A DNA stretch of 64,000 nt from Pseudomonas fluorescens Q2-87 (lineage in GTDB: Bacteria; Pseudomonadota; Gammaproteobacteria; Pseudomonadales; Pseudomonadaceae), in NCBI RefSeq assembly GCF_000281895.1, contig NZ_CM001558.1, forward strand, positions 5,646,556-5,710,555. Reading direction: 5' to 3'. Both the position numbers and the translations under genes were made by a program. Shown piece after piece: positions 6,984-12,499 of the stretch. Numbering within the stretch: the stretch's first letter is position 1; each line of letters opens with the position of its first letter. Below the pieces are notes generated by a model that searched no databases, was not told where the DNA came from, and was given only the letters and a program-made list of their open reading frames with translations.

Positions 6984-8117
6984 TTACTTCTGTTTTTCCA
7001 ACTGGTGGTATTTGCCGTCCTTGTCCCACTCGTAGACCACGTAGTCGGAGACTTTCAGGTCGCCCTTGCTGTCCCAGGCTTTCTCGCCCATGACGGTCTT
7101 GACCGGGTTTTTCTTCAACCAGGCAGCGGCTTCTTCGCCTTTGTTGGACTTGGCCCCGTTGAAGGCCGCAGCCAACGTTTGCACCGACGCGTAGGCATAC
7201 AGGGTGTAGCCTTCCGGCTCAGTGCCCTTGGCGCGGAACGCATCCACTACGGCCTTGCTGTCTGGCAGCAGGCGCGGGTCGGCACCGAAGGTCATCAGCA
7301 CGCCGTCGACAAATTGCGGGCCGCCAGCGGTGGTGACCAATTCGTCGGTCACGATGCCGTCGTCGGACATGAACTTGACGTCCTTCAGGCCCTGCTCACG
7401 CAGTTGACGAACCAGGGGCCCGGCTTCCGGGTGCAGGCCGCCAAAGTAGACGACATCGGCGCCAGCGCCGCGGATCTTGGTAACAATGGTGCTGAAGTCT
7501 TTTTCGCCACGGGTCAGGCCTTCGTACAGCACAGGCGTCACGCCACGCTTGACGAGCTGGGCCTTGGTGGCATCCGCCAGGCCCTGGCCGTAGGTATCCT
7601 TGTCGTGCAGCACGACGACTTTCTTACCTTTGAGCACGTCGACGATGTAGTCACCGGCGACGATGCCTTGCTGGTCGTCACGACCGCACATACGAAACAT
7701 GGCGCTCAAGCCGCGCTCGGTAACCTGTGGGTTGGTAGAACCCGGCGTGATCGCGATGATGCCGGCTTCGTCGTAGATCTCGGAGGCCGGGATGGTCGAC
7801 GAGGAGCAGAAGTGACCGACAACGCCGGCCACTTTCTGGTTGGTCAGGTCCTTGGCTACCGTAACGGCCTGTTTCGGTTCGCAGGCGTCATCGCCCTTGA
7901 CCAGCAGGATTTTTTCCCCGTTCACGCCGCCCTTGGCATTGATTTCGTCTGCCGCGGCCTGTGCACCCTTCATGTACTGCTCGCCAAATGCTGCGTTGGC
8001 GCCTGTCATGGGACCCGCCACGCCGATCTTGATGTCGGCCTGGGCAAACGCAGAAACACCCAGCGCAGCTGCCACTGCGAGGGCCAGGAAACCTTTCTTG
8101 TAAAACGTCTGGGACAT
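6984..8117 (-). CDS. livK: Branched-chain amino-acid periplasmic binding protein LivK (BraC)
   Basis: A 377-residue precursor. The signal peptide FLALAVAAALGVSAFAQA is followed by DIKIGVAGPMTGANAAFGEQ, the standard start of a mature leucine/isoleucine/valine-binding protein. The type I periplasmic fold features VGHFCSSSTIPASEIY and ITPGSTNPQVTERG are visible. The ATG at 8117 is chosen because GGAG lies upstream and the next in-frame start, 33 bases earlier, would add residues before the signal peptide. It is the first gene of the liv operon, transcribed from the sigma-54 site at 8179-8194. Confidence 0.95.
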   Translation of the reverse strand: MSQTFYKKGFLALAVAAALGVSAFAQADIKIGVAGPMTGANAAFGEQYMKGAQAAADEINAKGGVNGEKILLVKGDDACEPKQAVTVAKDLTNQKVAGVVGHFCSSSTIPASEIYDEAGIIAITPGSTNPQVTERGLSAMFRMCGRDDQQGIVAGDYIVDVLKGKKVVVLHDKDTYGQGLADATKAQLVKRGVTPVLYEGLTRGEKDFSTIVTKIRGAGADVVYFGGLHPEAGPLVRQLREQGLKDVKFMSDDGIVTDELVTTAGGPQFVDGVLMTFGADPRLLPDSKAVVDAFRAKGTEPEGYTLYAYASVQTLAAAFNGAKSNKGEEAAAWLKKNPVKTVMGEKAWDSKGDLKVSDYVVYEWDKDGKYHQLEKQK

Positions 8118-8178
8118 GAGGTGGTGCTCCAAGGTTTTTTTAGTTGGCACTGCGACTTCATTTCACTGAGAAGCTGAG

Positions 8179-8194
8179 AGCAAGGGCCGTGCCA
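8179..8194 (-). promoter_or_regulatory. Sigma-54 (RpoN) promoter of livKHMGF
   Basis: The minus strand reads TGGCACGGCCCTTGCT, a full match to the -24/-12 consensus TGGCACG-N4-TTGCW. Transcription would begin near 8169, leaving a leader of about 50 bases before the livK ATG. This places the transporter under RpoN and an enhancer-binding activator. Confidence 0.8.
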
Positions 8195-8266
8195 TCGGTT
8201 TTTCATTCTGAAAAAAGTCGCTGCTTTATTGTTATTTCGACTGTTTCGGGCCCTTTTTCATAGGGC

Positions 8267-8366
8267 GTGCAACCGTCTAAACCGCGCGAGGTGCAACCTT
8301 TTATTCGAATGGGTGAAACCCTCCATGAGCCATCATTGCAACCATCCGACGAAACGGCGTGCAACC
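8267..8366 (-). promoter_or_regulatory. Five phased direct repeats, likely activator-binding array upstream of livK
   Basis: On the minus strand GGTTGCAC occurs at 8267-8274, 8291-8298 and 8359-8366, with GGTTTCAC at 8313-8320 and GGTTGCAA at 8336-8343. Start-to-start steps are 24, 22, 23 and 23 bp, about two helical turns, so all units face one side of the helix. The array lies roughly 100-200 bp upstream of the predicted sigma-54 start, the normal position for an enhancer-binding-protein site. The 8118-8486 gap contains no gene. Confidence 0.65.
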
Positions 8367-8486
8367 ACTCTGTAACAACCTGCGTCACCGAACTGCACAC
8401 TAGCGGTGCGCGACTGCTACAACCCGCACCATAACAGGCTAGACGCTAAGCGGGAAAACGCGGCTTCCGGCAACATTTTTCAACAC

Positions 8487-9770
8487 TCAAATGACGATGC
8501 GCAGGCACTGGCCCGCGTGATACAGCGAGAAGCCCGCCTCGTACAGGCAACTGCGCACACCCGCTGCGGCCAATGGCTGCATGGGGGCGAAGGGAATCGG
8601 CAGCGCCTTGGCATCACCATGGCACAGGTAATCGGCGAAGGCCTTGCCCACCACGGTACCGGTGGTCACGCCCCGGCCGTTGTAGCCGGTCACGGCCACC
8701 AGCCCGGGGGCAGGTTCGAACAGGCGCATCAGGTGATCGGGTGTGAAGGCAATGCACCCTGTCCAGGTGCACTCCCATTCCACCGCCTTGAGGTAGGGGA
8801 AATAGTGTTGCTGCACACGGTCCGCCCAAGCCTTGAGGAACCAGCCCGGCTTGCGGTTGCCGTTGCCAAGGCTGCCCAGCAGCAGGCGGCCGTCCTTGTC
8901 ACGGCGGATGCTGCTCAACACCTGGCGGGTGTCCCATGAACCCTGCCCGCCGGGCAAAATCCGTTGAGCTGCTTCGTCCGTCAGCGGGACGGAGGCGACC
9001 TGATAGTAATAGCCAGGGAAAAAGTTGCGCCGCAGCTCGGTCCAGTCGCCCTCGGTATAGGCGTTGGAGGCAATCACCACCTGCTCGGCCAGCACCGACC
9101 CGTGGGCGGTCTGGACCGACCAGCGCTGGCCCTGGCGTTCCAGGCGCGTCACAGGCGAGTGATCGAAAAGCTGGCCGCCCAAGTCCTTGGCAGCCTTCGC
9201 CAGTCCGCTGGTGTAGGCCATCGGATTGAGGGTGCCGGCGCGTCGGTCAAGCAACGCTGCGGCAATCTTTGGGGTGCCAGTGGCGTCGAAGCAGGCCTGG
9301 CCGGTGAGCAATTCCACCGGGGCGCCGCGGCGTTTCCATTGCGCTTCGCGACTGCGCAGGTCCGCCTCGCCACGGGCGTTATGGGCCATGTGCAAGGTGC
9401 CTTCGCGGCGCAACTGGCAATCGATGTTGTATTTGTCGACGAGGCTGAACACCAAGGCCGGCGCGGCGCCCAGCATGCGATTGAGCTGGCTGCCCACCGC
9501 CTCACCGAACCCCGCCTCGATGTCATCCGGCGGGATCCACAGGCCGGCGTTGACCAGGCCGACGTTGCGTCCCGACCCACCATGCCCGGCCCGATGGGCT
9601 TCCAATACTGCAACGCGCTTGCCTTGTTCCAACAAGTGCACCGCCGCCGACAGCCCGGTGAAACCTGCGCCGATGACGCAGACATCTACCGTGATTTCTG
9701 CGCTGAGCGAGCTGTTTTCAGGCCTTTGTGGCGTCAGTTTTTCCCACAGACATTCTTCGCGTAACGGCAT
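8487..9770 (-). CDS. amaA: L-pipecolate oxidase AmaA (FAD-dependent oxidoreductase)
   Basis: A 427-residue DadA-type flavoprotein. The dinucleotide-binding motif VCVIGAGFTGLSAAVHLLEQG lies at about residue 28 and is followed by an acidic residue (VLEAHRAGHGGSGRN), with a C-terminal FAD segment GYNGRGVTTGTVVGKA. The order oxidase, 496-residue aldehyde dehydrogenase and LysR gene matches the P. putida ama locus, where AmaA oxidises L-pipecolate to piperideine-6-carboxylate in lysine catabolism; the assignment rests mainly on that neighbourhood. A related possibility is a gamma-glutamylputrescine oxidase-like enzyme. The ATG at 9770 has GGAG 7 bases upstream. Confidence 0.8.
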   Translation of the reverse strand: MPLREECLWEKLTPQRPENSSLSAEITVDVCVIGAGFTGLSAAVHLLEQGKRVAVLEAHRAGHGGSGRNVGLVNAGLWIPPDDIEAGFGEAVGSQLNRMLGAAPALVFSLVDKYNIDCQLRREGTLHMAHNARGEADLRSREAQWKRRGAPVELLTGQACFDATGTPKIAAALLDRRAGTLNPMAYTSGLAKAAKDLGGQLFDHSPVTRLERQGQRWSVQTAHGSVLAEQVVIASNAYTEGDWTELRRNFFPGYYYQVASVPLTDEAAQRILPGGQGSWDTRQVLSSIRRDKDGRLLLGSLGNGNRKPGWFLKAWADRVQQHYFPYLKAVEWECTWTGCIAFTPDHLMRLFEPAPGLVAVTGYNGRGVTTGTVVGKAFADYLCHGDAKALPIPFAPMQPLAAAGVRSCLYEAGFSLYHAGQCLRIVI

Positions 9771-11593: not shown

Positions 11594-12499
11594 ATGCTCA
11601 ATAAACGCTATTTGCCGTCGATCACGGCGCTGCAATGCTTCGAAGCGGTGACCCGCCACCTGAGCTTCACCCGTGCCGCCGAAGAGCTGAACCTGACCCA
11701 GAGTGCCGTCAGCAAGCAGGTCGCGCAATTGGAGGAACTGCTGCAGCACTTATTGTTCCGGCGCGTACGTCGACGCTTGCAACTGACACCGGCCGGGGAT
11801 TTGTACCTGGGGGAAGTGCGAAAAATTCTTTCCCAGGTGGAGATGTCTACCCATTACCTGCGTTCCTACGGCGGCGACACCGAAGTCCTGCGCGTTTCCA
11901 CACCTCCGACGTTCGGCGCCCGCTGGCTGGTCCCACGCTTGAAGGGGTGGCGTTTGCGCCACCCCACGATTCACCTGGATCTGTGCAGTGAGCAAGAGGC
12001 CGATGACTTGGTGCAGGGGCGCAGCGACCTGGCGTTTTACTTCGGCCACGGCTCACGGCCCGGCACCGAATCCCTGAAGCTGTTCGGCGAAGAGCTGGTG
12101 CCGGTCTGCGCACCCGGCAGCCTGCCGGAACACCCCTTCACCGACCCGACCCAACTGGCCGAACTGGTGCTGCTGCAAAACGCATCGCGTCCCCAGGCCT
12201 GGCACGACTGGTTCGACAGCCAGGGCTACCACACCGAACACAGCTACCACGGGCCGCGCTTCGAAACGTTCTATATGTGCATCCGAGCCGCCCAGGTCGG
12301 CTGCGGCGTTGCCTTGCTCCCGCGCTTCCTGGTGGAAGAAGAACTGGCCGACGGCAAGCTCATCATTCCCTGGGCCCATGCGATGCCCAGCACCAGCGCC
12401 TATTACCTGGCCTACCCGGAACATTCGGCGGAAGTGCCCAAGGTCCGGCTGTTCGTGGAATGGATGCTAGAGCAGGTCGAGAACCCGGATACGCTGTAA
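11594..12499 (+). CDS. LysR-family transcriptional regulator (GcvA-like), next to ama genes
   Basis: A 301-residue LysR-type regulator. The N-terminal winged helix-turn-helix ITALQCFEAVTRHLSFTRAA, then LNLTQSAVSKQVAQLE, spans about residues 9-60; the effector-binding domain from about residue 90 has the TPPTFGARWLVPRL motif of the GcvA subgroup. It is transcribed divergently from amaB across 175 bp, the usual arrangement for a regulator of its neighbour, so control of pipecolate/lysine degradation is likely but inferred. I could not identify a convincing T-N11-A operator by eye. Confidence 0.88.
   Translation: MLNKRYLPSITALQCFEAVTRHLSFTRAAEELNLTQSAVSKQVAQLEELLQHLLFRRVRRRLQLTPAGDLYLGEVRKILSQVEMSTHYLRSYGGDTEVLRVSTPPTFGARWLVPRLKGWRLRHPTIHLDLCSEQEADDLVQGRSDLAFYFGHGSRPGTESLKLFGEELVPVCAPGSLPEHPFTDPTQLAELVLLQNASRPQAWHDWFDSQGYHTEHSYHGPRFETFYMCIRAAQVGCGVALLPRFLVEEELADGKLIIPWAHAMPSTSAYYLAYPEHSAEVPKVRLFVEWMLEQVENPDTL

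Follow-up and report, generated by a model that had tools for sequence, protein, structure and literature searches.

The branched-chain amino acid import operon that begins with livK is preceded by a real and strongly conserved composite enhancer, in which an NtrC-type site and a sigma-54 promoter box, both ordinary in themselves, occur together with an unusual ladder of short sites that all point one way. We analysed this region within a 64,000-nucleotide stretch of the Pseudomonas fluorescens Q2-87 genome (the window, to which all coordinates refer) and in livK/braC upstream regions of other genomes. Sequence comparison shows the box, the dyad and the array, and also their conservation and near-fixed spacing.

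The first gene of the operon encodes a livK/braC-type branched-chain amino acid binding protein of 377 aa (6984..8117, minus strand), counted from the ATG at 8117; the list of open reading frames for the window starts it at an earlier GTG. Other liv-like reading frames follow downstream on the same strand. We presume the gene to be livK, the name given in a preliminary description of this DNA. Sigma-54 promoters follow the consensus TGGCAC-N5-TTGCW, and the box upstream of livK, TGGCACGGCCCTTGCT (8194-8179, minus strand), matches it exactly. Judging by the position of this box, transcription of livK would start near 8168.

Five 8-bp repeats, or rungs, stand upstream of the box, all on the minus strand. 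A motif scan places rung 1 at 8366-8359 (GGTTGCAC, exact), rung 2 at 8343-8336 (GGTTGCAA, one mismatch), rung 3 at 8320-8313 (GGTTTCAC, one mismatch), and rungs 4 and 5 at 8298-8291 and 8274-8267 (both GGTTGCAC, exact), with spacings of 23, 23, 22 and 24 bp. Counted from the start predicted near 8168, the last rung spans about -99 to -106. The motif GGTTGCAC is not enriched by itself in the 64-kb window, where it matches 64 times with at most one mismatch against 80 expected, whereas the ordered chain of rungs at livK scores 13. No score above 5 was reached when the 456-base region was shuffled 5000 times with its dinucleotides preserved, and no other chain in the window scores above 3. We conclude that the signal resides in the ordered chain and not in the motif, since the motif alone is not enriched and the chain is far above the shuffles. 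The preliminary description, which had reported five direct repeats in one orientation every 22-24 bp, ending about 100 bp from the predicted start, is thus borne out by the motif scan and the shuffles.

When the rungs are stacked, the resulting logo is a sharply bounded, asymmetric 8-mer with no palindromic partner in its flanks. Its strongest columns are GGTT (1.8-1.9 bits), while the A and C of a part that resembles an NtrC half-site carry 1.1-1.2 bits and the base after them 0.26 bits. We considered a palindrome, an AraC-type second box and an Lrp-type dyad, and rejected all three, there being no second conserved box in the rung flanks; the earlier statement that the rungs are not palindromes agrees with this lack of a second arm. 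At 10.5 bp per turn the rungs of the window fall at 0, 69, 137, 171 and 274 degrees; a pitch of 11-11.4 bp per turn aligns them better. Neighbouring rungs are roughly in phase, and the whole array runs off one face of the helix unless the DNA is bent or wrapped. The helical phasing first ascribed to the ladder therefore holds only approximately, and the single face fails at 10.5 bp per turn.

The preliminary description had staked the ladder on its conservation in relatives. We found it in 130 of the 170 livK/braC upstream regions examined, which are not a random sample, and not in the other 40. The set contains 80 livK loci from named genomes, the most similar ones among 581, together with 29 family loci and 60 hand-chosen upstream regions (20 + 40). 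The 29 loci were used out of 52 family matches, one of which, L112, is the window's own locus and was represented by the window. Twenty further regions were fetched from the same 52 matches, leaving out G074 and the second match of G124, and the remaining 40 came from 128 genomes of the same genus with a livK match, picked by hand and mostly of lower identity. Some hand-picked genomes may duplicate named ones; 129 of the 130 ladder-bearing sequences are distinct. The ladder and the sigma-54 box occur together in 80/80 of the named-genome loci, that is, in the best 80 of 581 by similarity.

The layout of the ladder varies little among the 130 ladder-bearing regions. Five good rungs are present in 91, four in 24, six in 9 and three in 6, and the spacings between good rungs are 22 bp (212 cases), 23 bp (154), 24 bp (102) and 21 bp (8), with a mean of 22.7 bp. 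The distance from the start of the last rung to the start of the box is 80 bp in 75/130 and 78-82 bp in 126/130. Mean pairwise identity is 0.86 in rung columns versus 0.57 in spacer columns, and 0.92 over the 16 columns of the sigma-54 box. A TGGCAY-N5-TTGC box is present in 130/130 ladder-bearing regions and in 30/40 ladder-less ones; the sigma-54 promoter box originally proposed for livK is supported. At L005, L008 and other named-genome loci, rung 2 overlaps a loose match to the sigma-54 consensus such as TGGCGCCGCGGTTGCA; in several species such a second match is seen roughly 230 bp before the start of livK, and the window has none.

By genus, the ladder was found in 2/2 regions examined from g4, 8/9 from g9 and 2/9 from g12, and in none of the regions examined from eight others (g2, g6, g8, g10, g11, g14, g16 and g17). 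In g12 the ladder is carried by L130 and L132 (genomes G078 and G090), and the seven regions that lack it keep the sigma-54 box. Eight of the 40 hand-picked regions from the window's own genus (g1) are ladder-less, seven of them with a livK identity of ≤78% and one with a decayed ladder. The 40 ladder-less regions as a whole include this decayed ladder (L276 of genome G219, score 5), in which the dyad, KGTTAC and the last rung are intact and the middle rungs changed, and 10 regions with no recognised sigma-54 box. Across the regions compared, the ladder is conserved within the lineages that bear it, and the array is lineage-restricted.

Further upstream lies an NtrC-type dyad, CGCACC-GCTAG-TGTGCA (8410-8394, minus strand), which we recognised by a pattern scan and by its conservation. 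The NtrC consensus is TGCACC-N5-GGTGCA; the window dyad departs from it by one mismatch per arm, and we count it as an NtrC-type site. Taken alone, the pattern shows no enrichment in the window (3 matches versus 2 expected), but GCACY-N6-GTGC is found upstream of the box in 129/130 ladder-bearing regions, most commonly at a distance of 214 bp (68 regions). These regions contain 39 distinct dyad sequences, with an identity of 0.96 in the arms versus 0.49 in the centre; fixed arms around a free centre are what a dimer site should show. As controls we used three permuted palindromes, none of which occurs in any ladder-bearing region. Among the 30 ladder-less regions with a box, 13 also have the dyad; nine of the 13 have it at 193-194 bp, about 20 bp closer to the box than in the ladder-bearing regions.

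Upstream of glnK in the same genome, at 92 bp from a candidate box, stands CGCACCGTTGTTGTGCG, a dyad of this form with no ladder beside it; glnA has only imperfect NtrC dyads. The counterpart of livK in P. putida KT2440 is presumably PP1141. In a nitrogen-limitation study of P. putida, the 'LivK' that is reported is PP4841, which belongs to a different operon, and PP1141 does not occur in the text of that study (PMC3325844). In P. stutzeri A1501, Table 3 of PMC2820453 places braC among the nitrogen-fixation-inducible core genes together with glnA, ntrB, ntrC and glnK. Because of the conservation of the dyad, the form of the glnK dyad and the listing of braC in P. stutzeri A1501, we consider NtrC the likely basic and older activator of the livK promoter. 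The P. putida study, the imperfect dyads at glnA and the chance-level frequency of the bare pattern in the window speak against this.

Just upstream of the dyad is a further block, TGTAGCAGT (TGTAGCA[GA]T; 8421-8413, minus strand). It recurs in 84/130 ladder-bearing regions at 225-229 bp from the box and in 1/30 of the ladder-less regions with a box, and is possibly a second activator site. Inverted arms, GGTGC ... GCACC, flank it at 8431-8404 on the minus strand and are conserved in an 81-region alignment.

Two hexamers occupy the interval between the dyad and the ladder, both in the same orientation as the rungs. TGTTAC (8372..8377, minus strand) stands 11 bp before rung 1 and is identical to the published CbrB subsite. 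GGTGAC (8384..8389, minus strand; 'rung 0', GGTKAC in relatives) precedes TGTTAC by 12 bp and rung 1 by 23 bp. Among the ladder-bearing regions, TGTTAC is present in 108/130 and KGTTAC in 126/130, with a mean pairwise identity of 0.94 over the hexamer, and GGTKAC is found upstream of the box in 119/130. The order of the elements could be parsed in 111 of the 130; the step from GGTKAC to KGTTAC is 12 bp in 109 of these and that from KGTTAC to rung 1 is 11 bp in 100. The five-rung ladder of the preliminary description is thus sound as far as it goes, but the element runs on upstream to about 8410, through TGTTAC and GGTGAC to the NtrC-type dyad. With this dyad in 129/130 regions and KGTTAC between it and the ladder, we find no support for the further view that the ladder stands alone, in which case firing of the promoter would require a specific unrecognised activator.

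The identity of TGTTAC with a CbrB subsite invites comparison with CbrB targets. We take L143 to be the CbrB gene of this genome, on the strength of its sequence and of a crcZ-like region behind it. In the crcZ-like promoter there, successive subsites begin at steps of 20 and 22 bp, and the last of them is 82 bp from its sigma-54 box, versus 80 bp (the commonest distance) for the livK ladder. The consensus given for CbrB is TGTTAC-N12-14-GTAACA-N15-19-GTAACA, a spacing that makes the two R subsites direct repeats 21-25 bp apart, and in the P. putida put promoter a subsite GcAACc is named, the reverse complement of which is GGTTGC (PMC8871633). CbrB is reported to act as a monomer on non-palindromic subsites (PMC6296734). 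Like the CbrB sites described at crcZ, crcY and PP2810 (PMC6296734, PMC8871633), the livK array consists of asymmetric NGTTNC hexamers at a sigma-54 promoter, spaced as direct repeats at 21-25 bp and ending about 80 bp before the box. In contrast to the forward-reverse-reverse order described for CbrB, each livK rung is GGTTGC followed by AC, and the rungs, of which there are usually five, share one orientation. The window region has one TGTTAC and no GTAACA partner, and GTAACA occurs in only 3/130 ladder-bearing regions. In the published target list livK does not appear: PP1141, its presumed counterpart, is absent from the 61 CbrB ChIP-seq targets of P. putida in Table 1 of PMC6296734 and from the text of that paper, the authors of which note that many targets may be overlooked. 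We conclude that the ladder resembles a CbrB-type array but departs from the published CbrB site: its rungs differ from the hexamer at two positions in nearly every copy and all run one way, and PP1141 is off the target list.

We tentatively favour, at somewhat less than even confidence, a composite sigma-54 enhancer in which the NtrC dyad is combined with an array for a second activator of the CbrB kind, at an operon for branched-chain amino acid import. NtrC binding, the identity of the protein on the ladder and its role as activator or repressor are inferred. The older activating input would come from an NtrC dimer some 214 bp before the box and would turn on the operon when nitrogen is limiting. 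Between this site and the box, the seven asymmetric sites in one orientation (GGTKAC, KGTTAC and the five GGTTGCAC rungs at 22-24 bp), lineage-restricted and at a fixed distance from the promoter, would most likely be bound by single DNA-binding domains of one oligomerising regulator. The candidate is a second sigma-54 activator of the CbrB kind, either CbrB itself or a relative, through which a carbon or amino-acid signal would enter and which may also contribute to the form of the loop. Against this reading count the departures of the rungs from the CbrB site, the lack of PP1141 among the CbrB targets and the absence of the ladder from the regions examined of eight genera of the family.

A different reading, which we regard as a serious possibility but would not ourselves bet on, makes the ladder the operator of a dedicated and so far unnamed regulator, either an activator or a repressor that responds to branched-chain amino acids. 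Such a protein would polymerise over the ~100 bp that separate the promoter from the NtrC site, helping or blocking the enhancer loop. The placement of the array between dyad and promoter suits this reading, as do the rungs, which depart from the CbrB hexamer TGTTAC at the same two positions in nearly every copy. It is also favoured by our finding the array only at livK in searches for three rungs, for two rungs and around sigma-54 boxes. A three-rung pattern matched in 29/40 genomes of the genus, and 30 loci were kept. Of these, 10 are livK-type loci whose sigma-54 box is no more than 300 bp away. Another 19 fall within open frames of 167 codons or more and lack a box over the same distance, and one (L089) has neither a long frame nor a box in the 1201 of its 3048 bases that were read. 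Two-rung pairs number 20 in the window's own genome (two of them at livK) versus 26 for a reversed control; the other 18 all fall within open frames, of 163 codons or more, and have no box. In 24 relatives there are 82 such pairs, livK included, versus 76 in the control; several non-livK pairs recur between these relatives, the frame check applying to the copies in the window's own genome. At the 11 perfect sigma-54 boxes found in the genome, dyad and ladder are combined at livK and at none of the other 10. For the genomes searched we therefore reject a regulon that shares the ladder, since the other three-rung matches, L089 apart, lie in open frames with no box and the two-rung pairs are at control level. 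Within these searches the ladder appears confined to livK, as one would expect of a dedicated regulator, or of an array special to this one promoter, whereas further arrays should exist for a global regulator.

Against a dedicated regulator stands the want of a candidate gene. The frames adjoining livK do not read as regulators, and a LysR-type frame lies about 3.5 kb upstream (11594-12499). The genome has 27 strong loci for sigma-54 activators, and the upstream regions of 23 could be parsed; none has two rung-like hits at ladder spacing. With at most two rung-like hits in each of these regions, we rejected autoregulation of an activator through the ladder. NCBIfam models applied to 20 of the 27 activators gave NtrC once and NorR twice above cut-off, and no candidate for a ladder-binding protein. 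A transcribed RNA element was likewise rejected, an Rfam scan of 7900-8600 giving one sub-threshold hit (E 0.44). In addition, KGTTAC and GGTKAC, in the same register and orientation as the rungs, suggest kinship with known sites of sigma-54 activators. In its full form, the reading has an unnamed regulator use five to seven asymmetric 8-bp sites as a cooperative filament inside the loop between NtrC and the promoter, dedicated to a single transport operon; we would put this at perhaps one chance in a few. If it were true, both a palindrome-free enhancer grammar and its regulator would be new to the literature searched. We found no description of the array in the open-access literature searched, outside which most subscription papers lie, and in this sense the array is apparently undescribed, as had been supposed.

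It is unlikely, in our view, that NtrC itself weakly occupies the rungs through their TGCAC portion, as a low-affinity array beside one strong dyad. The rungs do contain TTGCAC, which is close to an NtrC half-site, and in some relatives the register of the ladder runs on into TGCAC further upstream. However, the GGTT columns are the strongest in the logo, ahead of the half-site A and C, and the next base is barely specified. We think it improbable, too, that the ladder is an architectural array on which a bending or wrapping protein, Lrp/BkdR-like or other, draws NtrC site and promoter together, a task usually left to an IHF site. Steps of 22-24 bp, which fit 11-11.4 bp per turn better than 10.5, and the near-fixed distances to both promoter and dyad would suit such a protein, but proteins of this type have loose binding sites, unlike the sharply specified, asymmetric 8-bp motif found here. 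A chance or neutral repeat, for which nothing speaks beyond the shortness of the motif, is refuted by the conservation of the ladder, with the shuffles also against it, and has next to no credibility.

Set beside known systems, the livK enhancer is part familiar and part strange. Like NtrC-activated sigma-54 promoters such as those of glnK-amtB and glnA, it has a box and an upstream dyad of the form YGCACC-N5-TGTGCR; unlike them, it has one clear dyad some 214 bp away and a five-rung ladder between dyad and promoter. Most descriptions of sigma-54 enhancers give them one to three palindromes. In P. aeruginosa, GcsR also uses several tandem sites before a sigma-54 promoter, that of gcvH2, but these are described as three 18-bp sites, each a dyad TGTAACG-N4-CGTTCCG (PMC4894688), and the flanks of the livK rungs contain no second arm of a GcsR/TyrR-like site. 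Five to seven sites in one orientation, conserved across many species and almost constant in their distance from the promoter, make livK a place to learn how an activator can assemble without dimer sites, and the split within genus g12, two regions with the ladder and seven without, makes that genus well suited to a presence-and-absence search for the regulator. The livK enhancer is also a place to learn how nitrogen signals and carbon or amino-acid signals join in the uptake of branched-chain amino acids.
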